DNA of 44,630 nucleotides. Origin: a virus. The stretch is taken from positions 1 to 44,630 of IMG/VR virus record IMGVR_UViG_3300023172_000054, one strand, 5' to 3'. Shown piece by piece: positions 8,476 through 44,190 of this stretch. A program made the position numbers and the translations under genes. The notes beneath the pieces are model-generated. The model was not told the DNA's origin and made no database searches. It worked only from the letters and a program-made list of their open reading frames with translations. Each line of letters starts with the position of its first letter. Position 1 is the stretch's first letter.

Positions 8476-8883
8476 ATGGCACTCATTAAATCATATGAAC
8501 TAAACTCTGGATTAGAATGTCCTGAAGCATATCACGTTATTCATAATGTTGAAACGAAAAAACGTGTTGTTGATGACCAAGATCCAGGTGGTGTAAGACC
8601 AGACAATTCACCAGATCATGCGTGGAAAGCTGGTTATTACGGAAGAGTATCGGTTGTAGTATATGCTAGTAGAGCAGCTCGAGAAGCTGGTAAACAAGCA
8701 ATTGCAGCATACGCACAATATCCTACTGATGTTCCTGGAGGAGACTTTCAAGGAGAAATTAATATTATGCAAGTAGAGGATATGAATTTTACAATTGACC
8801 TAGCATCAGAAAAAAGTATTATAGAACAAGGTTATGATCACCTAATGACTCTACCTACTTGGTCTGATGCGGTTAACGATTAA
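8476..8883 (+). CDS. Small virion-associated hypothetical protein downstream of tail fibre
   Basis: A 135-residue protein starting 4 bases after the fibre stop, with AGGAGA ahead of the ATG, so it is probably co-transcribed with the fibre. It has no signal peptide or membrane segment. The sequence is mixed alpha/beta with a run of Ala/Arg-rich helix (ASRAAREAGKQAIAAYAQ). I do not recognise a catalytic motif. Position directly after a fibre gene suggests a fibre-assembly or baseplate accessory protein, but this is inference from context only. Confidence 0.75.
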   Translation: MALIKSYELNSGLECPEAYHVIHNVETKKRVVDDQDPGGVRPDNSPDHAWKAGYYGRVSVVVYASRAAREAGKQAIAAYAQYPTDVPGGDFQGEINIMQVEDMNFTIDLASEKSIIEQGYDHLMTLPTWSDAVND

Positions 8884-8884
8884 T

Positions 8885-8892
8885 TATAAATA
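8885..8892 (+). promoter_or_regulatory. T4-type late promoter box TATAAATA
   Basis: A perfect TATAAATA lies 36 bases before the ATG at 8928, in the gap after the preceding stop. This is the consensus recognised by the gp55 late sigma factor in T4-like phages. The same octamer recurs in other intergenic gaps before structural genes in this window, which supports it. Confidence 0.65.
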
Positions 8893-8927
8893 ACAAGTAA
8901 TTAAAATTATTACGGAGAAATAAAAAA

Positions 8928-9368
8928 ATGGCACTTACATATACTTGGAAAGTTAAAGGTCTTCGAAAGCAAGACCAAGTTAACAGTGAAGGCGCTACAT
9001 TAAATGGCGCGGTCGTTCAGACATACTGGGAATGCGAAGGTACCGATGAAAACGGTAATACTTCTGTGTTCTCTGGTGCAACTCCTTTTTCAGCAGAAAA
9101 TGTTCCAGCAGGTACATTTGTTGCTTTCGAGGATTTAACAGAAGAAACTGTTCTTGGTTGGATCAGAAACGTTGTTGAAGGTGACGGCGGCTATATGGAT
9201 CATATCGAAGAGCGCATTAGACATGAGATTGGTAAAGTTACTATCGAAGATGCACAAATGCCTTGGGCCCCTGAAGAAGTAACACCAGTTCCTAATGATA
9301 ATCTTGAAACTGAAGTGGAAGCTGAAGCAACATCAGGCGGTAATACTGACATTATAGACTCAGAATAA
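8928..9368 (+). CDS. DUF7936-like phage protein, long paralogue
   Basis: A 146-residue protein preceded by CGGAGAAA. It opens with TYTWKVKGL and contains VAFEDLTEETVLGWI and MPW near the end of the conserved part, followed by an acidic low-complexity tail (about residues 115-146). The next gene has the same pattern (TYTWEILSL, IAFESLTEAKVVEWL, VPWL), so the two are tandem paralogues. The pattern matches a small protein family common in T4-like cyano- and marine phages that I recall as DUF7936. Function is unknown; the position suggests a virion or assembly role. Confidence 0.8.
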   Translation: MALTYTWKVKGLRKQDQVNSEGATLNGAVVQTYWECEGTDENGNTSVFSGATPFSAENVPAGTFVAFEDLTEETVLGWIRNVVEGDGGYMDHIEERIRHEIGKVTIEDAQMPWAPEEVTPVPNDNLETEVEAEATSGGNTDIIDSE

Positions 9369-9381
9369 TAAGGAATAAGAA

Positions 9382-9714
9382 ATGACTTATACTTGGGAAA
9401 TTCTTAGTCTTAAAACACAAAACACTGTTAATTCCAGTGGTGAATCTTTAACGGATGCAGTATTAACTATTAATTGGAGAAGGCATGCAGATAATGGTGC
9501 AGGAAACAAAGTATCTATTACTGGTCAATGCCTTCTATCTTCAGAATCTGTATCATTAGCAGACTTTATAGCGTTTGAAAGTCTTACTGAAGCTAAAGTT
9601 GTAGAATGGCTTGAATCAAAACTTGGTGCAGAGCTTATTGCTGATTATGACAGTTCTTTAGAGAAAAAATTAAATCAAGACATCGCAACCGATCGAAGCG
9701 TTCCTTGGCTTTAA
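9382..9714 (+). CDS. DUF7936-like phage protein, short paralogue
   Basis: A 110-residue protein starting 13 bases after the stop of its paralogue, with AAGGAATAAG as ribosome-binding site. It shares the TYTW start, the central LTExxVxxWL helix and the terminal PWL with the preceding gene but lacks the acidic tail. Tandem duplication is the simplest explanation. It is the last gene before an independent promoter at 9733. No catalytic residues are apparent. Confidence 0.8.
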   Translation: MTYTWEILSLKTQNTVNSSGESLTDAVLTINWRRHADNGAGNKVSITGQCLLSSESVSLADFIAFESLTEAKVVEWLESKLGAELIADYDSSLEKKLNQDIATDRSVPWL

Positions 9715-9799: not shown

Positions 9800-10846
9800 A
9801 TGCACGATTTACGGCATTATGGCCTAGTCCATTGGGCGTTGAAAAGAGGCGGGAGTATTCATCCTGTCATATTGCCAAAAGAGTTAACTGGCGAAACAGG
9901 GATCATGAATCCATCAATATTTTTCCATAAAGGAAAATTATTGCTTAATGTTCGACATGTTAATTATACTCTTTATCATTCAGAAGGTAAAAAGTTTCCC
10001 CATACTTGGGGACCACTTCAATATATCCATCCGGAAAACGACGTATCTTTAACAACACATAATATTATGTGTGAATTAGATGCGCATTTAAATATCGTTC
10101 CAGGATCAGCAAATCGAATTAAGATGAATTTAGATACAGGTGAACCAACCTGGAACTTTATTGGTCTTGAAGATGGTAGATTGTTTGCTTGGGAAGATAG
10201 ACTTTTTCTTTGTGGTGTTCGTCGTGATTGTTATGACGACAAAGGTAAAGGTCGAATGGAAATGTGTGAAATAGAATTTATTGATGGTGTATGGCAAGAA
10301 GTATCTCGAAATCCAATTCCTGCACCAGGAGATGATGGAACATATTGTGAAAAGAATTGGATGCCAATTGTCGATATGCCTTGGCATTTTGTAAAATGGT
10401 GTAATCCTACAGAAGTTGTAAAATATGATATTAATACACGAACAACAACCACAGTTCATTTAGACGAATCTCAATTTCGCCCAGATATTTTCTTTAGAGA
10501 TTTAAGAGGAGGAACTCAAGTACTTCCTATTGGTGATGGCCGACATATGTGCTTTACACATGAAGTTGATTTATCTAAAGATATATTTCATAGAAAAGAT
10601 GGCCACTATAATCATCGTATAATCGTCTGGGACAAAGATTGGAATCTTATTAAGTGGACTAATGATTTTCATTTCTTGGGCACTCAGATTGATCCAGTAA
10701 CAGGATATGAATATAATATTGAATTTGCTACTGGTATGCAATTTGTAAACGGCCAAGTTCTTATCGTTTTTGGATATCAAGATAATGGAACTTTTATATT
10801 GAGAATGCCAGAAGATCTTTTCTTTGAATTTGTGAGTAGAGGATAA
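9800..10846 (+). CDS. Five-bladed-propeller glycosidase-like protein (GH130/GH43-like fold suspected)
   Basis: A 348-residue soluble protein with a strong GGAGAT site. It has repeated blade-like segments: NPSIFFHKGKLLLNVR (about residues 37-52), GLEDGRLFAWEDRLFLCGVRRD (about 122-143), EKNWMPIVD...FVKWCNP (about 184-203), RGGTQVLPIG (about 236-245) and FATGMQFVNGQVLIVFGYQD. These resemble the beta-propeller of GH130/GH43-superfamily enzymes and phosphorylases, with Glu-Asp pairs at blade edges. Substrate and catalytic residues cannot be assigned. It is first in a three-gene unit with a methyltransferase and a sugar-type nucleotidyltransferase, which suggests a role with surface or virion glycans. 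A non-catalytic glycan-binding propeller is an alternative. Confidence 0.6.
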   Translation: MHDLRHYGLVHWALKRGGSIHPVILPKELTGETGIMNPSIFFHKGKLLLNVRHVNYTLYHSEGKKFPHTWGPLQYIHPENDVSLTTHNIMCELDAHLNIVPGSANRIKMNLDTGEPTWNFIGLEDGRLFAWEDRLFLCGVRRDCYDDKGKGRMEMCEIEFIDGVWQEVSRNPIPAPGDDGTYCEKNWMPIVDMPWHFVKWCNPTEVVKYDINTRTTTTVHLDESQFRPDIFFRDLRGGTQVLPIGDGRHMCFTHEVDLSKDIFHRKDGHYNHRIIVWDKDWNLIKWTNDFHFLGTQIDPVTGYEYNIEFATGMQFVNGQVLIVFGYQDNGTFILRMPEDLFFEFVSRG

Positions 10847-10849
10847 ATT

Positions 10850-12082
10850 ATGTTGCAAGAATTATTGAATGAACACGTACTCGATCCTAAAAATCCAGAA
10901 AAGCTTTTTCGTTTAGCACAAGAATATGATGGATTAGAACAAGGAGCTATGGCAGTTTCTTTATATCTTAAAACTGCAGACTTAACTAATGATAAACAAC
11001 TTCAATATAAATGTATGATATTACTTGGTAAGTCATATGAAAGACAAGGTGGAAGAAACTTTACTGTTGAAGGTGCTTATCACGATGCTGCGGCTTTAAT
11101 GCCAGATAGACCAGAAGCACATTTCTTTTTATCAAATCATTATTGCGAAAGAGGAATGTGGAAACAATGTCTAACTCATGCAAATCTAGGATTAATGGCC
11201 GAAAGAGTATTACCTGAAATTCATGTTGGTTATCCAGGAAGAAAAGTTTTAGCCTTTCTTAATTCAATGGCTACTTGGTATATTGCTGGTCAACAATCTG
11301 GTAAACACAAATTATTTGATTTAAAACATAAAGTTATATTAGAGGGTGAACTTAAAAATAGAGCTGAGCAAATGCTTAAGCAAATTGGATATCCTGATAC
11401 TATTCCTTATAAAAAACACGACGAACATCGACTTAAGCATACGTTTCCAGGCTTACAAAGTATAATAAAAAATTATTCTAAACATTTTCAAGATATGTTT
11501 GTCTTAACTATGTTGAATGGTAAAAGAAATGGAACTTACTTAGAAATAGGATCTGGTCAGCCATTTATTCATAATAATACAGCTTTACTTGAAACTAAAT
11601 TTGGTTGGAAAGGTATTTCTGTTGATAATTCTCCAGCATTATGTTATCAATTTAAAGAAGAAAGAAATAATACGGTTATATGTTTAGATGCAACAGAAAC
11701 AAACTGGGAAGATTTATTTGAAAAACATTGTGTAGAACCAACATTTGATTATTTACAAATAGATTGTGATGAAGCATCTTTAGACATTTTAAAGAAGCTT
11801 CCATTCAATACTCACAAATTTGGTATTATAACATTTGAACATGATTGTTATCGATTAGGAACAGAAATACGCGATGAAGCAAGACAAATATTAATGCAAC
11901 ATGGATATAAATTAGTTGTTAGCGATGTTGGATTTACTCCAGAACATTCTTATGAAGACTGGTATGCACATCCAGATTTAGTTGATATTCCATCTAAATT
12001 ATTAGCGACATCTAATCATGTTAATTTTATATTTGATTATTTTATGGAACCTTTAACAGAAAAAAATGAGTTACAAATATGA
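10850..12082 (+). CDS. TPR-like N-terminus fused to FkbM-type SAM methyltransferase
   Basis: A 410-residue protein. The N-terminal part (about 1-130) is helical with TPR-like periodicity (LFRLAQEYDGLEQGAMAVSLY; KCMILLGKSYERQGG). The C-terminal part (about 210-390) has the SAM-binding motif TYLEIGSGQPFIHNNT, followed by WKGISVDNS (acidic end of strand 2), CLDATETNW and FDYLQIDCDEAS. This is the FkbM methyltransferase layout, with the host-type GIITFEHDCY strand. FkbM enzymes O-methylate sugars or small molecules. It starts 3 bases after the preceding stop and overlaps the next gene by 4 bases, so the three genes form one operon. Confidence 0.8.
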   Translation: MLQELLNEHVLDPKNPEKLFRLAQEYDGLEQGAMAVSLYLKTADLTNDKQLQYKCMILLGKSYERQGGRNFTVEGAYHDAAALMPDRPEAHFFLSNHYCERGMWKQCLTHANLGLMAERVLPEIHVGYPGRKVLAFLNSMATWYIAGQQSGKHKLFDLKHKVILEGELKNRAEQMLKQIGYPDTIPYKKHDEHRLKHTFPGLQSIIKNYSKHFQDMFVLTMLNGKRNGTYLEIGSGQPFIHNNTALLETKFGWKGISVDNSPALCYQFKEERNNTVICLDATETNWEDLFEKHCVEPTFDYLQIDCDEASLDILKKLPFNTHKFGIITFEHDCYRLGTEIRDEARQILMQHGYKLVVSDVGFTPEHSYEDWYAHPDLVDIPSKLLATSNHVNFIFDYFMEPLTEKNELQI

Positions 12083-30250: not shown

Positions 30251-30279
30251 ATTATAACACAGTTTCACGCAAATGTCAA
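30251..30279 (-). promoter_or_regulatory. Early-type sigma70 promoter, minus strand (family copy 1)
   Basis: On the minus strand TTGACA (30279-30274), 17-base spacer, TATAAT (30256-30251), with an A-rich upstream stretch containing GTG/GAAAAA-type tracts. It shares TTGACATTTGC with the other minus-strand promoters at 33277, 33613, 34062 and 44162. Confidence 0.85.
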
Positions 30280-33276: not shown

Positions 33277-33305
33277 ATTATACTACAGTCTCGAGTAAAT
33301 GTCAA
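33277..33305 (-). promoter_or_regulatory. Early-type sigma70 promoter, minus strand (family copy 2)
   Basis: TTGACA (33305-33300), 17 bases, TATAAT (33282-33277) on the minus strand, with A-tracts upstream (two long A runs separated by GT). It shares TTGACATTT with the other copies but has a diverged spacer. Confidence 0.85.
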
Positions 33306-33612: not shown

Positions 33613-33641
33613 ATTATACATCATCTCAAAGCAAATGTCAA
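33613..33641 (-). promoter_or_regulatory. Early-type sigma70 promoter, minus strand (family copy 3)
   Basis: TTGACA (33641-33636), 17 bases, TATAAT (33618-33613). The spacer and the leader down to TTAGGAAAAAGG are nearly identical to the copies at 34062 and 44162. A-tracts lie upstream. Confidence 0.9.
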
Positions 33642-34061: not shown

Positions 34062-34090
34062 ATTATACATCATCTCAAAGCAAATGTCAA
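34062..34090 (-). promoter_or_regulatory. Early-type sigma70 promoter, minus strand (family copy 4)
   Basis: TTGACA (34090-34085), 17 bases, TATAAT (34067-34062). Almost the same sequence, leader included, appears at 33613 and 44162. Directly upstream is a three-fold 10-base A-tract repeat. Confidence 0.9.
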
Positions 34091-34251: not shown

Positions 34252-34259
34252 TATAAATA
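34252..34259 (+). promoter_or_regulatory. T4-type late promoter box before curli-type operon
   Basis: A perfect TATAAATA lies 50-57 bases before the first ATG of the ten-gene operon at 34309, in a divergent intergenic region. No sigma70 consensus is seen on this strand here, so late expression is expected. Confidence 0.7.
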
Positions 34260-34308: not shown

Positions 34309-34605
34309 ATGGAATCTATACTCCAGCTAATAGCTGATTTAGGCTTACCTATAGCAGGTGCATTAGTAATGGGAGCATTCCTCTTTATTATTATTAAACA
34401 AATTTTTGAAGGAATAGTTGATAGCATTAATACGTTGAATATGTTCTGTGAAAGCCTAGAAAACAGAGCGAGAACTATGTCAAATGAGATGGTTAAAATA
34501 GATTTACTCGTTTCTAGCGCACTTGGATTAAATCCTGATATTGAGCGAATTGCTCGAGCGGAAAATTTTATAGAAGACGGAAAACTCGACGTAAGGAGAG
34601 ATTAA
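34309..34605 (+). CDS. Holin-like membrane protein, paralogue 1
   Basis: A 98-residue protein with AAAAGGATA upstream. It has one N-terminal membrane segment (about residues 11-32, LPIAGALVMGAFLFIIIKQIF), then an amphipathic helical region. It is alignable with the protein at 34807: xGxPxxxxxxxGxFxxxxxxxIxExIxxxIxxx, then RxRxMxxxxxxIxxLV, then IER. Size and topology fit phage holin or spanin-like helpers, but curli operons do not normally contain such genes. First gene of the operon; its stop touches the next start. Function is uncertain. Confidence 0.7.
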   Translation: MESILQLIADLGLPIAGALVMGAFLFIIIKQIFEGIVDSINTLNMFCESLENRARTMSNEMVKIDLLVSSALGLNPDIERIARAENFIEDGKLDVRRD

Positions 34606-34817
34606 TGCTATATTGTGGTTATCATTTCACGGTAATACCCGGTGGAGATTTACTAATATTTGACGAATCTGACGGTGAATTAACACTAGAAAAATTGAAT
34701 TGGAAAGCTGGTGATAAATTTGTTGCGATGGAACATTACAACGGTGCCGCCGCTTTGATAAGGACTAATAGGAAACCATATAATCCAAAACAATTGGATT
34801 TGTTCGATGGAATTTGA
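34605..34817 (+). CDS. 70-residue soluble protein ending in a clamp-binding-like QLDLF motif
   Basis: AAGGAGAG precedes the ATG, which overlaps the preceding stop by one base. The product is a small beta-rich domain (VIPGGDLLIFDESDGELTLEKLNWKAGDKFVAME), followed by a basic linker and KQLDLFDGI. QLDLF matches the canonical beta-sliding-clamp-binding pentapeptide. Whether this is functional is unknown. It sits between the two holin-like paralogues and overlaps the second. Confidence 0.65.
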   Translation: MLYCGYHFTVIPGGDLLIFDESDGELTLEKLNWKAGDKFVAMEHYNGAAALIRTNRKPYNPKQLDLFDGI

Positions 34818-35082
34818 TATAGTTACTGCCGTATCTGAATATGGCTTTCCTACAGTGATGGTAATTGGTTTAGGATATTTTGTGTATTTTGTGTGGAATT
34901 TTATAAACGAAAATATTATTCCTACAATAGATAAAATGCACATGCAACTTATCAAAGTAATTGATCGCATGAGAATGTTAGATCAAGACCTCATTCGTTT
35001 ACAACAAAAAGTAGATGTCGTATTAAAATATAGAGAAATTGAAAGATTAAAAGAGGATTCTAAAAATAATGAAAAAAACTGA
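34807..35082 (+). CDS. Holin-like membrane protein, paralogue 2
   Basis: A 91-residue protein with a membrane segment at about residues 13-35 (GFPTVMVIGLGYFVYFVWNFI), then a helical, coiled-coil-prone tail (MRMLDQDLIRLQQKVDVVLKYREIERLKED). It is a paralogue of the first gene of the operon. Start overlaps the preceding gene by 11 bases and its end overlaps csgF by 14 bases, so these genes are tightly coupled. It could form inner-membrane oligomers feeding or gating the secretion system, or act as a pinholin; both are speculative. Confidence 0.7.
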   Translation: MEFDIVTAVSEYGFPTVMVIGLGYFVYFVWNFINENIIPTIDKMHMQLIKVIDRMRMLDQDLIRLQQKVDVVLKYREIERLKEDSKNNEKN

Positions 35083-35599
35083 TGATAGAGGTTTACTTGC
35101 TATTGGTTGGGTAATACTTATTACATATCTTTTACTTGCAACAGGAAAAGTATATGGTGAACCTATAGTACAAAAATTTAAAAATCCATCATTCAGCGGA
35201 ATTGGAACTGGTGCTCATTATTTAACTATTGAGAACCAAGAATTTAGTAGAAAGAAACAAATCGAAGATGCAATGGAAGCTGCAAGAAAGGCAGCAGAAC
35301 GAGAAGCAGATAATACAATTTTAGCAAAGTTTATAAGAAATCTTGAAAGCAGGATTTATGCTCAATTAGCAAAACAGTTAGTAGACAATATGTTCTCTAA
35401 TGATAATCCTGTAAGGTATGGATCCTTTGTATTGGAAGGATCAACAGTAACATATGAAGTAATTACAAACACAGATGGTACTGAATATATTAAGATGACG
35501 ATTGTCGGGGAAGATGGGACAACGACCGTGATTGAAATACCTATTGGTAGTGGTAACTTCGGCGGAGGAACTGATGACTCGAATCCTGACGGCGGTTAG
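35069..35599 (+). CDS. csgF: CsgF-like curli assembly factor
   Basis: A 176-residue protein with AGAGGA upstream. A hydrophobic leader (about residues 9-30, ending GKVYG) gives export. The mature start PIVQKFKNPSFSGIGTGAHYL matches the conserved CsgF N-terminus (FxNPxFGG...GxxLL) that plugs into the CsgG channel. This is followed by a helical segment (about 60-110, with NFIRxLESRIYAQLAKQL-type pattern) and a beta-rich end (GSFVLEGSTVTYEV, ...IVGEDGTTTVIEIPIGSG) as in CsgF. It is longer than E. coli CsgF (138) because of an extra charged helix and a Gly/Asp tail. CsgF couples the outer-membrane channel to nucleation of curli fibres at the cell surface. csgG overlaps it by 26 bases. Confidence 0.88.
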   Translation: MKKTDDRGLLAIGWVILITYLLLATGKVYGEPIVQKFKNPSFSGIGTGAHYLTIENQEFSRKKQIEDAMEAARKAAEREADNTILAKFIRNLESRIYAQLAKQLVDNMFSNDNPVRYGSFVLEGSTVTYEVITNTDGTEYIKMTIVGEDGTTTVIEIPIGSGNFGGGTDDSNPDGG

Positions 35600-36488
35600 T
35601 CTATTACTTCTTATTACAGGTTGTGCATCTATTCCGCAATGGAATGAAAATCCTGGTCAATGTGAATATGGTAAAGGTAAATATTCAGAAGGATTTGGAA
35701 GAGACGTTTATACAGGCGTAAGAAAGTTTTATGCACAACAATTAATATGCGCAGATAATCCTGAAGTTGTAAGATTACCATCTTATATAGAATTATTAAA
35801 TTTACCGCCAGCCGAACAAATGCCGGTGGTTGCTGTATATAACTTTTTAGATAAAACAGGACAACGTAAAGATTCAGTCACAGGACAAAGTTTCTCCACT
35901 GCGGTAACACAAGGTGGAACAGAATTATTAATTGATGCACTCAAAACTGCAGGAGATGGTAAATGGTTTAGAGTTGCTGAAAGACAAGGGATTGATGCTC
36001 TTGTTAGAGAAAGACAAATTATTCGTAGTGGTCGAGAAGAAGCCGCAAAGATAACTGGAGAAGATGCTCCAAATCTTGGACCACTTTTATTCGCAGGAAT
36101 GATAATTGAAGGCGGTATTATTGGATATGATAGTAACTTAAGAACGGGCGGTATCGGAGCAAGGACGCTAGGATTAGGTATTACTCGTCAATATAGACAA
36201 GATCAAGTTACTATTTCATTAAGAGCAGTATCAGTTTTAACTGGTGAAGTATTACTTAATGTACAAACGAAAAAAACAATTTTAAGTTATGGTGCCGGAG
36301 GCGATGTTTTTAGATTCATCGAGCAGGGAACGCAGTTGATTGAATATGAAGACGGTGTAGGAAATAATGAAAGTGTGACGTATGCAGTACGAACAGCAAT
36401 TGAAGCTGCCGTATTGGAAATGGTTTATCAAGGAGATCGTCGTGGTTTCTGGAAAATAAACAAACAAAATAACGGGGAAGAAGAATGA
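35574..36488 (+). CDS. csgG: CsgG-like curli secretion channel lipoprotein
   Basis: A 304-residue protein. The ATG at 35574 is chosen because GGAGG lies 5 bases upstream and it yields a clean lipoprotein signal (LLLLITGC, Cys17). Conserved CsgG blocks are VVAVYNFLDKTGQRK, SFSTAVTQGGTELLIDAL, WFRVAERQGIDALVRERQIIR, MIIEGGIIGYDSNLRTGGIGARTLGLG, YRQDQVTISLRAVSVLTGEVLLNVQTKKTILSY, DVFRFIEQGTQLIEYEDGVGNNESVTYAVRTAIEAAV and DRRGFWK. The protein forms a nonameric outer-membrane pore for curlin export. Odd points: an extra ~50-residue insert after the lipobox with two cysteines, and loss of two of three constriction residues. It lies between csgF and a curlin-repeat gene. Confidence 0.95.
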   Translation: MTRILTAVSLLLLITGCASIPQWNENPGQCEYGKGKYSEGFGRDVYTGVRKFYAQQLICADNPEVVRLPSYIELLNLPPAEQMPVVAVYNFLDKTGQRKDSVTGQSFSTAVTQGGTELLIDALKTAGDGKWFRVAERQGIDALVRERQIIRSGREEAAKITGEDAPNLGPLLFAGMIIEGGIIGYDSNLRTGGIGARTLGLGITRQYRQDQVTISLRAVSVLTGEVLLNVQTKKTILSYGAGGDVFRFIEQGTQLIEYEDGVGNNESVTYAVRTAIEAAVLEMVYQGDRRGFWKINKQNNGEEE

Positions 36489-37216
36489 TTAAAAAACTAT
36501 TAGGCCTAAGTTTAGTTTTTGTTTCTACTTTCGCATTTGCGCAAGCAACGGACGATAACGAAATCAATATTGACCAACAAGGTGATACATTGACTTTATA
36601 TATTGACCAATATGGATATGGAAACAAAGTTGGAGGAGATAACGCTTCTTCAGGATCAGTTTCAGCAATGTCTATTATTGGTGCAACTTTGAATATTGAC
36701 ATTAATCAAATTGGTAATAGCAATTTGCTTTTTGGTCCTATTACATTAGACAGTTCAACAATAGATCTTACTTGGACTGGAGATAGTAATAGTTGGGATT
36801 GGAACATTGGTTATGTTGGTTCATCAGATTCAGCAAACATTTTGTCTGATATAACTGGTGATAGCAACACTATGGATTTCGATCTAGGTTATAACGCAAG
36901 TGCCGAGAGATTGGATTTTGATTTATCTGTTCTCGGTTCAACTAACGTATTTGATATTGACATTGATGTTGATGATGCGATTTGGAACTTCGATATTACT
37001 GGAGATTCAAATAACATTAACACAATGCAAAAAGATGGTGCTGAGCACGAAATCAATATGACTCACGTTGGAGATAGTGCCGATATAGATATCAATCAAT
37101 TAAGTGGAACATGTCCTACAGGTGTATCAACCTGTAATGGGATTATAACTTTAGACATTGATTCTGACAATGCTACTATCCAGATTAATCAAAAAGATTC
37201 GTCTAACGATACTTAG
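36485..37216 (+). CDS. Secreted curlin-repeat protein 1 (candidate amyloid subunit)
   Basis: A 243-residue protein with a standard signal peptide (MIKKLLGLSLVFVSTFAFAQA). The mature part is Asp/Asn/Ser/Thr-rich and contains curlin-type repeats: NEINIDQQGDTLTLYIDQYGYGNKV (about 25-49), ATLNIDINQIGNSN (about 67-80) and ADIDINQLSG (about 199-208), TIQINQKDS at the end, plus degenerate ITGDSNNINTMQ and LTWTGDSNSWDW units. The NxxxIxQxGxxN pattern is that of CsgA/CsgB. A long Trp/Asp-rich central part departs from canonical CsgA. Start overlaps csgG by 4 bases, GGGGAAG upstream. A disulfide is possible (CPTGVSTC). Likely the substrate of the adjacent CsgG channel. Confidence 0.8.
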   Translation: MIKKLLGLSLVFVSTFAFAQATDDNEINIDQQGDTLTLYIDQYGYGNKVGGDNASSGSVSAMSIIGATLNIDINQIGNSNLLFGPITLDSSTIDLTWTGDSNSWDWNIGYVGSSDSANILSDITGDSNTMDFDLGYNASAERLDFDLSVLGSTNVFDIDIDVDDAIWNFDITGDSNNINTMQKDGAEHEINMTHVGDSADIDINQLSGTCPTGVSTCNGIITLDIDSDNATIQINQKDSSNDT

Positions 37217-38321
37217 TGTTTTCACTTTGTTGCCATTGGGTTTGTCTGCAGCAGACCCAATTGGCAATATTGTTGAACACACAGGAACTGGTTCTATTAC
37301 AAGAGAAGCAGGTGCAACTCTTGAGGTGTCAGACCAACAAGTACCTGACATTGTCATTAATGATACGGCCGAAACTGAGAATGGCCGAATGCTTATCGAA
37401 TTCTTAGATAAAGCAGAACTCAGTCTTACCGAAAATACAAAAGTATACATTGATAGCGTATACTACGATCCTGATCCAAGTAAATCCAAAATGGCAATGC
37501 GTATGGCATTAGGCACTGCACGATTTGCATCAGGTCGTTTGGGTATGGTAAATAAAAGTAATATAGACATACAAACACCTACTGCAAGTATTGCGGTACG
37601 CGGAACAGATTTCACAACCACCATAGATGAGCTTGGAAGATCACTGGTCATACTTTTACCAGATCAATATGGTAATCCATCAGGAACAATTGAAGTATCT
37701 AATTTAGGAGGTACGATTACTTTAGAAGAAGCTTATGCAGCAACAATGGTTTCTACATTAGATGATCCGCCAACAAGACAGATTAATATTTCAAATATAA
37801 CAGCAAATGTTATTGATAATATGTTCATTGTGTCTCCACCTCCTGAAGTAAAAAGAGCATTAGAAGAAGAATATAACGATGAAAATAATGATGATCAAGG
37901 ATTGCTTGATGTTGACTTTTTAGAATTTAACGAATTAGAATATGATGCATTAGCGGAAGACGAATTAGAATTTTCAGAACTTGATATTGATTTTTTAGAT
38001 GTAGATTTTCTTGTTGATTTATTAAATGTAATTGATGATCTCGTAAAAACAACAGCTTCATTAGATGATAGTGCAGTATCAAATAATGCGATGGGCGCAG
38101 AATTAAAAGGTGCAGGATTTGGTTTAAATTCAGATTCTCAATATAACATTTATGAAGATAACGGTAAAATAATTTTTTATCGTTTGGCAAATGGAAAGAT
38201 TCAATTAGCATTTGCCGTAGATGCTTCAGTAAAAGTAAATACAGAAGTAGAAGGATATAGTGGGATCATTGATCTAAATGGCGGTAATAACTCAACAGTA
38301 ATTATAAGACAGGGTGGATAA
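37170..38321 (+). CDS. Secreted FecR-domain protein with curlin-like C-terminal tail
   Basis: A 383-residue protein from the ATG at 37170 (a TTG at 37158 is the alternative); both read through the end of the preceding gene. A basic N-region and hydrophobic stretch end at LGLSA, a probable signal peptide. The FecR domain spans about residues 32-155: IGNIVEHTGTGSITREAG, GRMLIEFLDKAELSLTENT, MRMALGTARFASGRLGMVN, IDIQTPTASIAVRGTDFTT. A very acidic Leu/Phe/Asp region (about 230-290) follows, then a beta-rich tail ending GIIDLNGGNNSTVIIRQGG, which resembles a curlin repeat. FecR-domain proteins with CHASE2 cyclases are frequent gene neighbours in bacteria. The tail could dock to the amyloid. Confidence 0.8.
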   Translation: MLLSRLIKKIRLTILSVFTLLPLGLSAADPIGNIVEHTGTGSITREAGATLEVSDQQVPDIVINDTAETENGRMLIEFLDKAELSLTENTKVYIDSVYYDPDPSKSKMAMRMALGTARFASGRLGMVNKSNIDIQTPTASIAVRGTDFTTTIDELGRSLVILLPDQYGNPSGTIEVSNLGGTITLEEAYAATMVSTLDDPPTRQINISNITANVIDNMFIVSPPPEVKRALEEEYNDENNDDQGLLDVDFLEFNELEYDALAEDELEFSELDIDFLDVDFLVDLLNVIDDLVKTTASLDDSAVSNNAMGAELKGAGFGLNSDSQYNIYEDNGKIIFYRLANGKIQLAFAVDASVKVNTEVEGYSGIIDLNGGNNSTVIIRQGG

Positions 38322-38329
38322 ATAAGTTT

Positions 38330-39070
38330 ATGGACGAATTTGATAGAAAATTAGATAAATGGTTATTAGGATTTAGTTGGTGCCTATTAGGAATGTATTT
38401 TCTTTTGGCAGCCGGTAAAGCCTATGCAGATAATGAAATCACAATAGAACAGACTGGTGACAATTTTGATCTAAATATAACACAAATAGGTTATAGCAAT
38501 ATCATTAAACAATGGTCATCAACAGAAGGAATAGATGGTGCAGACAATACTATCTCTATTGCACAAAATAAGAACTATGGTAGTTCTACTGATAAAAACA
38601 TCATAGAGATTCGTAGAGTTTGGGGAATAGGAAACGATCTAAAACTTGCTCAAGGATATATCATTAATGGAGACGGAAGTTTTTCTATAGACAATGATGA
38701 ATATGGTGATACCTTTGCTCATATCAATGTCACTGGTGATTACAACAATATAGAAATGACTCAACGAACAAACAGTACTTCTTCAGGTCATTGGTATGGT
38801 TTACATATTGAAGGAGATTATAATGATATATCTACTATTCAAAGAGAAGGTGGTGGACATACATTAGATTTAGATATTTACAATGATGGTAATATTGTTG
38901 ATGTTGTTCAAAAGAATAGTGGAAGTCATTATGCATGGATAAGACTTGATGGAACATACGGAACTGATATAACACTTTTACAAGATTCGACTTTAAATAA
39001 ATCATATTCACTCAATCAAACCTGTTATACTGTAGGTGGTTGTAGTGTATCAGTAACGCAGGGCCAATAA
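38330..39070 (+). CDS. Secreted curlin-repeat protein 2
   Basis: A 246-residue protein. The N-terminus (KLDKWLLGFSWCLLGMYFLLAAGKAYA) is an export signal similar in layout to that of the CsgF homologue (LLxxGW...YLLLAxGKxY). Curlin-type repeats follow directly: NEITIEQTGDNFDLNITQIG, NTISIAQNK, NNIEMTQRTN, NDISTIQREG, NIVDVVQKN and CSVSVTQGQ at the end, each with the NxIxxxQ core. It is Asn/Asp-rich, with two cysteines near the end. It may be the nucleator (CsgB-like) partner of curlin 1; which is subunit and which nucleator cannot be decided. Stop overlaps the next start (TAATG). Confidence 0.8.
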   Translation: MDEFDRKLDKWLLGFSWCLLGMYFLLAAGKAYADNEITIEQTGDNFDLNITQIGYSNIIKQWSSTEGIDGADNTISIAQNKNYGSSTDKNIIEIRRVWGIGNDLKLAQGYIINGDGSFSIDNDEYGDTFAHINVTGDYNNIEMTQRTNSTSSGHWYGLHIEGDYNDISTIQREGGGHTLDLDIYNDGNIVDVVQKNSGSHYAWIRLDGTYGTDITLLQDSTLNKSYSLNQTCYTVGGCSVSVTQGQ

Positions 39071-41109
39071 TGAAATGGTTAACAAAGTGGTGGACAGTAT
39101 TAATAACAATTGCTGGATTTGCAACCTTATCAATTTCTAATCCAAACTTTATTCAAAGTATAGAATATGCATATTATGACTATCTTCAATCAGAACAAGA
39201 AAAAATACAATCAACCGATATTGTCCTCGTCAACATTGACGAAAGAGCTATCGCAGCTGAAGGCCAATATCCGTGGCCTCGGGATATTGTTGCTAAGTAC
39301 CTTAATAACAATTCTCCTAATTCTCTTTATGTCTTAAATATGATCTATTCCGAATCTGATAGGTTCGGAGGAGATAATCAACTTGCAGAAGCAATGGCAC
39401 AAAAAGCTGTTGTATTATCTTCTGCTCCTACTCAACAAACATCAGATGGAGTTGGCACCTTTGTTGGTGTTGCTACCTTTGGAGAACAAAATGAAAATTG
39501 GCTTTATGAATTTCCAGGATTATTGTACCCTATTCAACCTCTTGCTGATTACGCTTTTGGTGTTGGTGCCACCGTTGCTGTTCCTGATGAACCAACAGGA
39601 GTTGTGCGTAGAGCACCACTCGTGGTCAGAGCAGCCGGGAATCCCTATCCATCTCTCGCACTCGATACATTACGAGTGTTCACAGGAGAACCCAGTTATC
39701 AAATGAAAGTAGGTCCACTCGGAGTTGAGTGGATTCGTATGGGTCGTCAAGATCCTATCACAACAAATAGTTTTGCCGAAATACCAATTGCTTTCTGGAA
39801 CGAATTTGAACAAGTAAGTATACTTGATCCTTTACCAGATGGAAAGGTATTAATATTTGGTATTACAGCAGAAGGATATGCTAATCCAGTCGCAACCCCA
39901 ACGGGTGCAAAGTATCCTCACGAAGTTCAAGCACACCTGGTTCAGACCGTCCTTTCAGGAGTTGAAATACAGATTCCCGACTGGCAGCCAATAGTCGAGC
40001 TGCTTCTTCTGGTCTTACTGAGTCTAGGTATCCTTGGAGCGGTCTATATTTTGCCCACAATTCTTGGATTGACAACGAGTTTATTTCTGCTCGCTTCCTC
40101 TTCATTAATATCATATTATTTATGGACTGATTCGCTGCTATTCGTTGACGCCACAATGAGTTCATTTGCTTCCTTAGTAGTATTTGCTCAATCAAGTTTT
40201 AACAAGTATTTTATCACGTTTTTAGAGAAACGTCAACTAGCAAAACAATTTGCTGGGTATGCTTCTCCTACAGTCGTTCGTTTACTCCAAGAGAATCCTT
40301 CTCTCGTTAAAGAGGGAATGAAAAAAGAAATTAGTATTTGTTTTTCTGATTTAAGAGGATTTACACCTTTAGGTGAAAGCTTTGGAGATGACGTACAAGG
40401 ATTAACGAAATTAATGAATGGATATATGGATTCAATCACTGAGCCTGTCCTTAACGCTGATGGAATGATTATTAAATATATAGGCGATGCGTCGATGCAC
40501 ATCCACAACGCACCTATAGAAGATCCTGACCACCCTAAAACTGCTGTTCAAACTGGATTGAACATGCTTAAATCTGTAGAAGAATTTAATAAAAAGATTA
40601 TTGCTGAAGGAAGACCACCAATTGGTATGGGTGCCGGTATTAATACTGGTCTCGGATATCTTGGTGAAATGGGTTCTACAGAGCGACATAGTTATGATGT
40701 TCTTGGAGATGCAGTATCAACAGCAGCACGAATAGAATCTAAATGTAAAGAATATGGTTGTTTGCTTTTAGTAGGTGGCGCAACTGTTGAAAGATGTCGA
40801 AATGACTTTTTCTTTTTGAAAGTAGATGATCTTGCTGTAAAGGGCAAATCAGTAGGCATTGAGATATACACAGTTTTAGATTTAAATAAGGATAAATATA
40901 TTAAACCGGCTGAGATGCATGAAGCTATGCATATGAATTATAGAAAACAAAACTTTGATAAAGCCATAAAAATATGTAATGATTTAATGGAATGTTTTGA
41001 AGGTCAGATGGCTGGATATTATACCATGTGGATAGAGCGTTGTGAATATATGAAAACGCAAGATCTACCCAAAGATTGGGACGGGATTTTCATTGCGACT
41101 ACTAAATAA
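39070..41109 (+). CDS. CHASE2 membrane sensor with class III adenylate cyclase domain
   Basis: A 679-residue protein. A membrane segment at about 8-22 is followed by a periplasmic CHASE2 domain (about 30-300: YDYLQ, VLVNIDERAI, QYPWPRD, GFG/AxxD blocks), three membrane segments (about 308-327, 329-350, 352-372), then a cyclase domain (about 415-605). Visible catalytic residues are metal-binding Asp427 (CFSDLRGFT) and Asp473 (YIGDASM), purine-selecting Lys469 and Asp543 (SYDVLGD, adenine type), and Arg554. The transition-state Asn expected in GDxVNxAAR is Ser550. A C-terminal helical extension (about 610-660) resembles a TPR-like tail. It probably senses an envelope signal and makes cAMP. Last but one gene of the operon; a cyclase in a phage is unusual. 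Confidence 0.93.
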   Translation: MKWLTKWWTVLITIAGFATLSISNPNFIQSIEYAYYDYLQSEQEKIQSTDIVLVNIDERAIAAEGQYPWPRDIVAKYLNNNSPNSLYVLNMIYSESDRFGGDNQLAEAMAQKAVVLSSAPTQQTSDGVGTFVGVATFGEQNENWLYEFPGLLYPIQPLADYAFGVGATVAVPDEPTGVVRRAPLVVRAAGNPYPSLALDTLRVFTGEPSYQMKVGPLGVEWIRMGRQDPITTNSFAEIPIAFWNEFEQVSILDPLPDGKVLIFGITAEGYANPVATPTGAKYPHEVQAHLVQTVLSGVEIQIPDWQPIVELLLLVLLSLGILGAVYILPTILGLTTSLFLLASSSLISYYLWTDSLLFVDATMSSFASLVVFAQSSFNKYFITFLEKRQLAKQFAGYASPTVVRLLQENPSLVKEGMKKEISICFSDLRGFTPLGESFGDDVQGLTKLMNGYMDSITEPVLNADGMIIKYIGDASMHIHNAPIEDPDHPKTAVQTGLNMLKSVEEFNKKIIAEGRPPIGMGAGINTGLGYLGEMGSTERHSYDVLGDAVSTAARIESKCKEYGCLLLVGGATVERCRNDFFFLKVDDLAVKGKSVGIEIYTVLDLNKDKYIKPAEMHEAMHMNYRKQNFDKAIKICNDLMECFEGQMAGYYTMWIERCEYMKTQDLPKDWDGIFIATTK

Positions 41110-41644
41110 ATTACTTATCGGATTACTTTTTTTAAGTTTTCCAGTATATGCAGGGTACACTGATATACAAAGAGTAATGTTTGAAGCAGGTTATACTGCA
41201 CCATACAATGACGAATATGTTCAAAGAGTTATTATAGGTCAAGCAAGAATAATGCCTAATGGCTCAATTGTTAATTTACCACATCCATCTCACATTCAAT
41301 CAACATTAATTTTTCCTGAATTTAAAATAACAGAGGAGGAACCTGCCAGCTTAGCCACCTGGACGATCTTTTTTCTCGTTCAAGCTGCAGATATCTGGTC
41401 TACCAAAAAAGCCCTCGCTTACGATTGTGTATATGAATTGAATCCTTTATTACCAAGAGTGCCAGAGATACATGAAATGGTACTTCTTAAAACAGCAATA
41501 TTTGGATCTATATTACCAGAGATTCAAAAAAGACAAACAATCACAAATGAAATCTTGATGCCTACACTTATGTTAACTTCTGTTGTTGTTCACAGTAATC
41601 TTAGAGTACTCGAAAAAGCAAAAAAACATTGTAATAAAAGATAA
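41093..41644 (+). CDS. Secreted/membrane DUF5658-like protein (TTG start)
   Basis: A 183-residue protein. The start is a TTG at 41093, overlapping the cyclase gene by 17 bases, with GGGA upstream. It is preferred over later ATGs because only it gives the signal peptide (RLLNKLLIGLLFLSFPVYAG). The C-terminal half is a membrane unit with FLVQAADIWSTKKALAYDCVYELNPLLP, close to the QxxDxxTTxxAL...ExNPxL pattern of DUF5658 proteins, then MVLLKTAIFG and a final hydrophobic stretch. Function is unknown. Last gene of the operon, followed by a hairpin. Confidence 0.7.
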   Translation: MRLLNKLLIGLLFLSFPVYAGYTDIQRVMFEAGYTAPYNDEYVQRVIIGQARIMPNGSIVNLPHPSHIQSTLIFPEFKITEEEPASLATWTIFFLVQAADIWSTKKALAYDCVYELNPLLPRVPEIHEMVLLKTAIFGSILPEIQKRQTITNEILMPTLMLTSVVVHSNLRVLEKAKKHCNKR

Positions 41645-41664
41645 GGGACCCTTTCGAGTCCCTT
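41643..41664 (+). terminator. Terminator-like hairpin ending the curli-type operon
   Basis: AAGGGAC and GTCCCTT form a 7-base perfect stem round an 8-base loop, overlapping the stop codon region. The downstream T run is weak (GCTGTTT). It resembles the gp23 terminator sequence (AGGGA...TCCCTT). Confidence 0.6.
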
Positions 41665-41999: not shown

Positions 42000-42091
42000 T
42001 ATACTGGGTTTACTCCATATAATGTAACAAGAAATATTGCACATAAAAGTACAACTTCTAATTTCTCTTTTAATCTTTCTATATCGTTCAT
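41999..42091 (-). CDS. 30-residue single-pass membrane peptide
   Basis: The start overlaps the EF-hand gene stop (TAATG) and AAGG lies 6 bases upstream. A charged N-terminus (NDIERLKEKLE) is followed by a membrane helix (VVLLCAIFLVTLYGV). No family is recognised. Confidence 0.5.
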   Translation of the reverse strand: MNDIERLKEKLEVVLLCAIFLVTLYGVNPV

Positions 42092-42345
42092 TATACCTTT
42101 TTAGGACAGTTGGCTCTAAAAATATACTCAGAAGCATTTCTTGCTTCTTTCACATTTAAAAATCCATCTTTGTTTTTATCTGCATGCTTCCAAAGACCTT
42201 TTTTAACGGTGCACTCGGATGCTTTAAGTTCTTCTATGCTGATTAGTTTGTCACCATTCAAATCGAATCGTTCCATTCTCCAGTCAGCATATGCTGGTGC
42301 TGCAATTAAGCAAGCAGCAATTGCTATCATAAATTTGTTATTCAT
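42091..42345 (-). CDS. Secreted two-EF-hand calcium-binding protein
   Basis: An 84-residue protein. The ATG at 42345 follows AAGGAAC and gives a clean signal peptide (MNNKFMIAIAACLIAAPAYA, cleavage before Asp21). Two canonical EF loops are visible: DLNGDKLISIEE (28-39) and DKNKDGFLNVKE (56-67), each with ligands at positions 1, 3, 5, 9 and 12. Cys45 and Cys80 could form a disulfide in the periplasm. It heads a coupled run of tiny membrane-protein genes and lies just beyond the curli-type operon on the opposite strand. Calcium binding is a strong prediction; the role is unknown. Confidence 0.85.
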   Translation of the reverse strand: MNNKFMIAIAACLIAAPAYADWRMERFDLNGDKLISIEELKASECTVKKGLWKHADKNKDGFLNVKEARNASEYIFRANCPKKV

Positions 42346-42367
42346 TGTGTTCCTTATAATAGAATAA

Positions 42368-42511
42368 TCAAACAAAAAGATTTACTAATGCCATCGTGCC
42401 TAACATAAATCCTAATACAACTACTTGTAAGATTGAAGCATATACGACTTGACGCATTGGGTGCATATCAACTAACTTCTCAATAGGGTGTACTCCTGGT
42501 GAGAGGTTCAT
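42368..42511 (-). CDS. 47-residue membrane protein
   Basis: An ORF with N-terminal soluble part (NLSPGVHPIEKLVDMHPMRQ) and a C-terminal membrane segment (VVYASILQVVVLGFMLGTMALVNLFV). An in-frame TTG at 42538 with GGGA upstream could add nine residues; the ATG at 42511 has no clear ribosome-binding site. An extended -10-type promoter lies at 42555-42560. No family is recognised. Confidence 0.5.
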   Translation of the reverse strand: MNLSPGVHPIEKLVDMHPMRQVVYASILQVVVLGFMLGTMALVNLFV

Positions 42512-42638: not shown

Positions 42639-42848
42639 TTACGAAAACAATTCAGTTTGTTCGTATTCAGGAAACAAAGTTGTTTGTTTATACTCTTCAT
42701 TAGCGATTTGAGTATCATAAAATGCTTTCAATTCGTCATATTTTTTACGAATTTGAACTGGCATAACTCCACCTGAATCAATCACCCATTGAATTTCTCT
42801 GCCTAATGCTCTAGACAATTGCAACTCCATTACTGTAGCTCTATCCAT
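42639..42848 (-). CDS. 69-residue protein with tandem QxxLF motifs
   Basis: The start lies one base after the guaC stop, with AGGAG inside the guaC end, so it is co-translated. It is a helical protein (RATVMELQLSRALGREIQWVID) ending QTTLFPEYEQTELFS, with two Q-T-x-LF motifs resembling clamp-binding peptides. No family is recognised. Confidence 0.65.
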   Translation of the reverse strand: MDRATVMELQLSRALGREIQWVIDSGGVMPVQIRKKYDELKAFYDTQIANEEYKQTTLFPEYEQTELFS

Positions 42849-42849
42849 A

Positions 42850-44001
42850 TTATACTCCTATTGTTGAACTTTCATAAACTTGATTGTGCGTTTGAGTGCA
42901 GCGAACAAAGGTTGTACATTTACTTAAATTTTTAAGCTTTTCTGCACCAGCATATGTACACGCACTACGTAAACCACCTAGAATGTCCTGTACTGTATTA
43001 AGTACTGGTCCTTTATATGGTACCACCACTGTACGACCTTCTGAGGATCTGTAGTCTTTAAGACCACCAAAGTGTTTATCATTAGCAGACTTAGAACTCA
43101 TACCATAAAACTCTACAAATTGTTTCTCAATACGTTTACCAATCCCCGCGGACGTAGCGGGCGCCTGCACGTTTGAAATAATAGATTCAGTAATTACATT
43201 ACCACCACCTTCATCATGTCCTGCGAGCATTCCACCCAACATTACAAAATCTGCTCCTGCGGCAAATGCCTTTGCTACATCACCAGGTGATACACAACCA
43301 CCATCAGCAATAATATGTCCACCAAGACCATGTGCAGCATCAGCGCATTCAATGACCGCTGAAAGTTGAGGATAACCCACACCAGTTTGAATACGAGTAG
43401 TGCAAACACTACCAGGTCCAATTCCAACTTTAACAATATCTGCTCCACTCAGTATAAGTTCTTCTGTCATTTCACCAGTTACAACATTACCAGCAATAAT
43501 CACAATATGTGGTGCTTTTTCTCTTAGTGTTGCGATATAGTCTCTAAAACGATTACTATATCCATTGGCAACATCTACACATACATACTTAATTGCTTCT
43601 CGGTCATGTTGATATACTTCAATAAACTTAGTAAGCTCTTCAATTGAAATACCCATGCTATATGCACAGTGTTCTGTACGAAGAATTTTTCCTGAATTAA
43701 AGAATTTAATTAGATCTTCTTTAGAATAAGTTTTTACAAGACAGGTAAACAATCCATGTTTCGAAAGTACATCTGCCATTTCAAATGTACCAACTCCATC
43801 CATGTTCGAAGCCATAATAGGAATACCACGATAATCTGGCATTTCAGGTCGTAAAGCATTCATACTCATTTCATAATGCTCAGAATTCCTATAATTAAAC
43901 TCACGATATAGATCTACTTCTTTTCTGCTTCCAAGTGTTGATCTTTTTGGACGAATCAAAACATCTTTATAGTCAAGTTTGATTTCATTATCAATACGCA
44001 T
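42850..44001 (-). CDS. guaC: GMP reductase (GuaC-like)
   Basis: A 383-residue protein, close to bacterial GMP reductase (E. coli about 347). It shares KLDYKDVLIRPKRSTLGSR, PIMASNMDGVGTF, CVDVANGYS, AGNVVTGEMTEELILSGADIVKVGIGPGS, VCTTR (catalytic Cys200), GVGYPQLSAVIECADAAHGLGG, DGGCVSPGDVAKAF, ADFVMLGGMLAGH, FYGMSS and ILGGLRSACTYAGA. GVGYPQ and the single-domain length without CBS modules favour GMP reductase over IMP dehydrogenase. It converts GMP to IMP with NADPH, feeding adenine nucleotides. It differs by an insert of about 24 residues near 268-295 and an N-terminal insert near 43-57. It is an auxiliary metabolic gene in an early-type operon. Confidence 0.93.
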   Translation of the reverse strand: MRIDNEIKLDYKDVLIRPKRSTLGSRKEVDLYREFNYRNSEHYEMSMNALRPEMPDYRGIPIMASNMDGVGTFEMADVLSKHGLFTCLVKTYSKEDLIKFFNSGKILRTEHCAYSMGISIEELTKFIEVYQHDREAIKYVCVDVANGYSNRFRDYIATLREKAPHIVIIAGNVVTGEMTEELILSGADIVKVGIGPGSVCTTRIQTGVGYPQLSAVIECADAAHGLGGHIIADGGCVSPGDVAKAFAAGADFVMLGGMLAGHDEGGGNVITESIISNVQAPATSAGIGKRIEKQFVEFYGMSSKSANDKHFGGLKDYRSSEGRTVVVPYKGPVLNTVQDILGGLRSACTYAGAEKLKNLSKCTTFVRCTQTHNQVYESSTIGV

Positions 44002-44161: not shown

Positions 44162-44190
44162 ATTGTACATCATCTCAAAGCAAATGTCAA
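44162..44190 (-). promoter_or_regulatory. Early-type sigma70 promoter, minus strand (family copy 5)
   Basis: TTGACA (44190-44185), 17 bases, TACAAT (44167-44162). Spacer and leader nearly match copies 3 and 4 about 10 kb away. It drives the small gene at 44004, guaC and the gene at 42639. Confidence 0.88.

Follow-up and report, generated by a model that had tools for sequence, protein, structure and literature searches.

What would a phage do with a secretion system of its own? The question is raised by the virus record IMGVR_UViG_3300023172_000054 of IMG/VR, a stretch of 44,630 nucleotides (“the window”), in which ten open reading frames at positions 34309-41644, all in the same direction and mostly overlapping, make up an operon for curli-type (type VIII) secretion. 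To our knowledge, phages that carry secretion systems whole are rare. The best answer, to which we give a probability of roughly 0.55, is the secretion of surface fibres late in infection, with a periplasmic sensor-cyclase arm attached to it. Sequence comparison points to a real and conserved operon for curli-type secretion with such an arm, probably expressed late. The tight, co-directional arrangement reported in a preliminary description of this DNA is borne out by the layout of the reading frames: neighbours overlap by 1-47 bases, with the sole exception of an 8-base gap ahead of gene H, and a single transcript is therefore to be expected. The ten genes are:

34309-34605, + strand: gene A, 98-residue single-pass membrane protein (phrog_18771), A-type
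34605-34817, + strand: gene B, 70-residue accessory protein with the C-terminus QLDLFDGI, in close relatives only
34807-35082, + strand: gene C, 91-residue paralogue of A, C-type, with a conserved helical RMLDxDLIRLQxKV segment
35069-35599, + strand: gene D, CsgF, exported (PF10614, E=6e-13), with a conserved N-terminal KNPSFSG motif
35574-36488, + strand: gene E, CsgG, outer-membrane lipoprotein channel (PF03783, E=1e-53), with an invariant lipobox Cys17
36485-37216, + strand: gene F, exported curlin-repeat protein 1, candidate fibre subunit (all-beta model; predicted local distance difference test score, pLDDT, 79.9)
37170-38321, + strand: gene G, exported FecR-domain protein with a C-terminal beta domain (PF04773, E=2e-10; model and fold search)
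38330-39070, + strand: gene H, exported curlin-repeat protein 2, fast-evolving
39070-41109, + strand: gene I, CHASE2 sensor with a class III nucleotide cyclase (PF05226, E=2e-30; PF00211, E=3e-16)
41093-41644, + strand: gene J, exported DUF5658-like protein, conserved last gene (DUF5658 support from homologues)

Such a block is not new in kind. It is already published as the type VIII secretion module of pelagiphages (PMC7029224, PMC9004378, PMC9599517), as the preliminary description had correctly stated for csgF and csgG in marine T4-like phages, and it is not the first of its kind, the system having been described from pelagiphages and a methylophage. These reports comprise csgF/csgG with “sibling capture” (PMC7029224), a proposal of CsgGF as a lysis device in the phage Melnitz (PMC9004378), and, from myo- and podophages, a module of “histidine kinase”, CsgF, CsgG, CsgA/B, FecR, CsgA/B and adenylate cyclase that is expressed in metatranscriptomes (PMC9599517). 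The cultured phages HTVC008M and Melnitz carry the same block. The pelagiphage module (HTVC008M, KC465899; PMC7029224; PMC9599517) shares with the window its occurrence in marine phages, T4-like ones among them, and the order small proteins, CsgF, CsgG, curlin, FecR, curlin and cyclase, but the CsgG of HTVC008M is only 48% identical to that of the window and its cyclase is of the other catalytic type. Melnitz, a phage of Methylophilales (MZ577097, PMC9004378), has the same order and the same cyclase type (Ser at the transition-state position), whereas its CsgG is 43% identical and J is lacking. Relative to the pelagiphage module, the window clade adds J (with B in a few members) and an exact late-promoter motif before the operon. 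What is new here is this late promoter, the finding that A and C are not histidine kinases, the conserved J, the relabelling of the FecR protein, the co-variation of sub-modules and the switches of cyclase type; the late timing is thus an addition of the present analysis to the published module.

The evidence for secretion begins with CsgF and CsgG. When each protein was searched with hidden Markov models, the CsgF, CsgG, FecR, CHASE2 and cyclase domains all scored above their Pfam cut-offs, and the CsgF homologue, CsgG lipoprotein, exported FecR-domain protein and CHASE2-cyclase of the preliminary description, the last two paired in one operon, all stand. Rather than falling under the family thresholds, CsgG reaches 182 bits (cut-off 20.8) and CsgF 49.5 bits (cut-off 25.8). 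CsgG keeps the channel core and the lipobox with its invariant Cys, and matches the E. coli CsgG structure 3x2r (E=6e-50); searches by sequence matched no solved structure for CsgF or for curlin 1. In E. coli, the N-terminal segment of CsgF inserts into CsgG. This channel-binding segment is kept in the phage protein, where NPSFSG corresponds to the bacterial NPAFGG, which counts against the published idea of a phage CsgF parted from CsgG. Six of the ten proteins (D, E, F, G, H and J) can be seen to begin with a signal peptide or lipobox.

The two exported curlin-repeat proteins named in the preliminary description are backed by their signal peptides and by their homologues, since the Curlin_rpt profile matches 37 of 38 relatives of the first (best E 9e-6) and 29 of 31 of the second (best 7e-6), a combination that argues for secreted curlin-repeat subunits. 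The claim has to be narrowed for the window's own copies, which score 19.5 and 14.1 bits, both under the cut-off of 20.7, and whose degenerate repeats are weighed below. The predicted structure of curlin 1 is regular strand-turn-strand beta, of fair confidence. In the case of Melnitz, the published account gives csgA/csgB as missing (PMC9004378), contrary to its own record, which annotates two curlin-repeat genes (8719-9438 and 10497-11513).

Judged by its sequence, G is an exported FecR-domain protein and not a FecR-type anti-sigma factor, because a signal peptide opens the protein and no anti-sigma domain is seen: matches are confined to the periplasmic FecR domain, and the operon has no sigma factor gene. 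The FecR domain resembles FecR/PupR-type structures in fold searches (4m0h, E=1e-4; 6ovk, 5e-4), and the model continues from this domain into an acidic linker, predicted poorly, and a beta domain at the C-terminus. At the C-terminus, an invariant Gln lies in a strand motif resembling curlin tails (IxIxQ), a likeness that was not significant in an unbiased test. A reading of this tail as a curlin half-repeat was dropped; it was significant only with C-terminal padding that favoured the end, and not in an unpadded profile test.

A class III adenylate cyclase is marked by two metal Asp residues, a base-selecting Lys/Asp and a transition-state Asn/Arg. The cyclase I retains both metal Asp residues and the adenine-type Lys (D427, D473, K469, with D543 and R554 also present), while the transition-state Asn is replaced by Ser550. 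The window thus belongs to the type with Asp and Ser-for-Asn (17 of 58 cyclases) and not to the one with Ser and Asn (41 of 58). At least two changes of catalytic type are needed on the trees of CsgG and CHASE2, which suggests that the output domain was exchanged and the sensor retained. Downstream, J occurs in 44 of the 52 loci with enough sequence to show it; its DUF5658-like label holds through the homologues (13 of 14 match), with the window copy at 21.5 bits, below the cut-off of 25.2. A comparable pair is known from Sinorhizobium meliloti, where the FecR-domain protein SMc02177 and CHASE2 adenylate cyclases belong to one cyclic AMP (cAMP) pathway, although that system is chromosomal and has no curli genes (PMC5498481). 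Deletion of CHASE2 from the Sinorhizobium CyaD1 leads to constitutive cAMP production (PMC5498481). A FecR-domain gene adjoins 4 of 29 alphaproteobacterial CHASE2 cyclases, while 68 bacterial CsgG neighbourhoods gave no FecR match, so the FecR/CHASE2 pairing is probably older than the phage operon.

The block opens with the A- and C-type paralogues (90-98 residues). All 77 testable loci have exactly two small membrane proteins ahead of csgF, as two subtypes by position, and from this position we infer that A and C are the published “histidine kinase”. The sequence gives that label of the pelagiphage module paper no support, and we reject it: kinase families (HisKA/HATPase) had no match in 20 A/C homologues even at E≤10, and the window proteins have just 91-98 residues. 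The “two paralogous holin-like proteins” of the preliminary description are indeed paralogues; as for the holin link, A alone weakly matches phrog_4898 (E=0.008), and a reading of A and C as BhlA-type holins was dropped, as no Pfam holin family matched. The “QLDLF protein”, gene B, is present but lies outside the conserved block, having been detected in 5 of about 80 relatives; its candidacy as a clamp-binding protein was rejected, as B homologues do not keep QLDLF.

Is the block more than a chance assembly? A viral scan gave 315 CsgG relatives, of which the best 80 were kept for locus comparison with per-gene profiles. Nearly every locus of sufficient length has the order A-C-D-E-F-G-H-I-J (two have J ahead of I and a few lack J), and this recurrence argues against chance. 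A search of 50,697 phage records met with C, with FecR and with the full-length cyclase solely in phages that also have CsgG. Pairwise distances correlate at 0.88 for A-C, 0.83-0.90 within D-E-F-G (CsgF, CsgG, curlin 1 and FecR) and 0.68 for I-J, with H variable. The FecR protein, at r=0.69 with the cyclase, thus follows the secretion core more closely, though neighbours share history and recombination could yield such blocks. Bacterial curli operons (csgBAC/csgDEFG of E. coli; csgFG of Bacteroidota and Alphaproteobacteria) share the CsgF-CsgG adjacency and the curlin repeats, but 68 bacterial (about 20 kb) and four alphaproteobacterial CsgG neighbourhoods contained no FecR, CHASE2 cyclase, A/C or J, in a bacterial scan biased by its two peptide patterns. 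Another 336 alphaproteobacterial genomes held only five CsgG loci. A Pelagibacter metagenome-assembled genome (MAG) has a single CsgG match, on a phage-like contig, and 96 other genomes of its order yielded none. Several contigs binned into MAGs of Bacteroidota, Rhodobacteraceae, Synechococcus or Pelagibacter contain the viral block; they look like contamination by phage and were treated as phage contigs.

The phage itself is T4-like, as its terminase, tail sheath, head scaffold and major head protein match phage families of this kind. A viral contig of 137,426 bases, 99.9% identical across a shared 19 kb, represents the same virus (the 137-kb record). The nearest relatives of the head protein are in the Sinorhizobium phages phiM12/phiN3 (65%) and in Melnitz (64%), so no assignment to a SAR11 host is made. 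As to when the operon is expressed, three features around it are relevant:

34062-34090, - strand: perfect sigma-70 (early) promoter (TTGACA-17-TATAAT), serving divergent flanking early genes; left boundary of the operon
34252-34259, + strand: T4-type late promoter TATAAATA, exact motif, about 50 bp ahead of gene A
41643-41664, no strand assigned: hairpin AAGGGACCCTTTCGAGTCCCTT after gene J, probable shared terminator of convergent units, scored by the scan on the - strand only

The motif TATAAATA has seven sites in the window, every one on the structural-gene strand. Because this raw count is not above chance (expected 6), it is the position and conservation of the sites that speak for a late promoter. 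Of the 11 sites in the 137-kb record, 9 are intergenic, and each of these 9 is placed 30-62 nt before a start codon. Upstream of the operon, the motif is found in 60 of 77 relatives, or 69 with one-base variants, against 2.4% of random windows, the relatives not being mutually independent. Perfect sigma-70 promoters number 6 in the window against 0.1 expected and mostly serve divergent early genes; with the late motif ahead of it, the operon thus appears as a late island amid early genes and is probably late-expressed. An earlier paper sought late promoters in pelagimyophages and did not find them.

How might such an operon work? The late transcription machinery of the phage would read all ten genes from one promoter. 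CsgG lipoproteins would build an outer-membrane channel in which CsgF is seated, and the two Sec-exported curlin-repeat proteins would leave through it and cover the infected cell with fibres or an amyloid-like coat. The FecR-domain protein, also exported, would be tied to the channel and the first curlin, with the A and C pair as dedicated inner-membrane partners. The CHASE2 cyclase, a predicted periplasmic sensor with a cytoplasmic catalytic domain, probably reports the state of the envelope apparatus as cAMP. The likely benefit would be that, around lysis, fibres make the infected cell or its debris aggregate, through which progeny could meet new hosts.

Several observations weigh against this picture. 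The textbook curlin pattern (NEIxIxQxG) is confined to the first repeats, the remaining ones being degenerate, and a fold search with curlin 1 gave no significant match, beta-solenoid-type structures appearing only at E>0.05. The window cyclase, with Ser at the transition-state Asn, is of uncertain activity. Correlated distances can stem from linkage. HTVC008M and Melnitz have no exact TATAAATA within 160 bp before gene A. CsgE, CsgC/CsgH and CsgD are usual in curli systems, though not universal. None of these families is matched among the ten operon proteins, in agreement with the preliminary description; they are absent too in other phages and outside several bacterial classes (PMC9599517). 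Finally, cells infected with Melnitz did not clump in the observations of Buchholz et al. (PMC9004378).

The rival that survives best, although unlikely, is the one proposed for Melnitz (PMC9004378), in which CsgG(F) is a repurposed lysis pore of the pinholin or secretin-like kind, A and C are holins and the curlins are relics. The late promoter would fit it, as would the weak match of A to the holin phrog_4898 (E=0.008). Yet almost all complete loci retain two exported curlins, and the co-variation of F with CsgG is tight, neither of which would be expected of relics; the channel motif of CsgF is kept; a separate cell-wall hydrolase (PF07486) is encoded elsewhere in the 137-kb genome; and CsgG, as an outer-membrane channel, would not depolarise the inner membrane. 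Less probable is a surface coat that excludes rival phages, a role proposed in PMC9599517 and listed in the preliminary description. Fibres could shield receptors, and H is fast-evolving, but classical exclusion genes are early, which makes superinfection exclusion less natural for an operon with a late promoter. A variant of fibre secretion, in which the FecR protein and the CHASE2 cyclase read fibre export at a late envelope checkpoint and set the lysis time via cAMP and A/C, so that the burst follows coating, is a long shot. That the curlin proteins are fibres or decorations of the virion is very improbable: the late motif is common to structural genes, but Sec signal peptides and an outer-membrane channel would take the curlins out of the cytoplasm, where T4-like virions assemble. 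Least credible is the import of nutrients (cofactors, siderophores) for the phage with FecR as iron regulator (PMC7029224, PMC9599517), as late expression comes late for the feeding of replication, the FecR protein has a signal peptide and no anti-sigma domain in an operon without a sigma factor gene, and CsgF and the curlins are both left unexplained.

The late promoter makes the published ideas separable: it counts against nutrient import and against superinfection exclusion of the classical type, and favours a role as infection ends. A phage-borne system of this kind would give the host a capacity that it lacks, given the absence of CsgG from the 96 Pelagibacter-order genomes; with such a host, the entire apparatus must come from the phage. 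With the “histidine kinase” and “FecR regulator” labels corrected and the conserved gene J added, experimenters have the right parts list.

Some neighbouring features deserve mention. Copies of the sigma-70 early promoter cassette lie ahead of small early genes on the - strand (30251-30279, 33277-33305, 33613-33641, 34062-34090 and 44162-44190) as near-identical repeats of 55-77 bases, one copy matching eight places in the 137-kb record. On the same strand, 42091-42375 encodes a small protein, apparently exported, whose DxNxDG calcium-binding motifs are EF-hand-like and which is probably the source of an EF-hand Pfam match, and 42639-42848 a 69-residue early protein that has two clamp-binding-like motifs, QTTLF and QTELF, at its C-terminus. 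Near the cyclase operon, an IMP dehydrogenase/GMP reductase-like enzyme (phrog_9582 dehydrogenase, E=1e-115) is encoded at 42850-44001 on the - strand.

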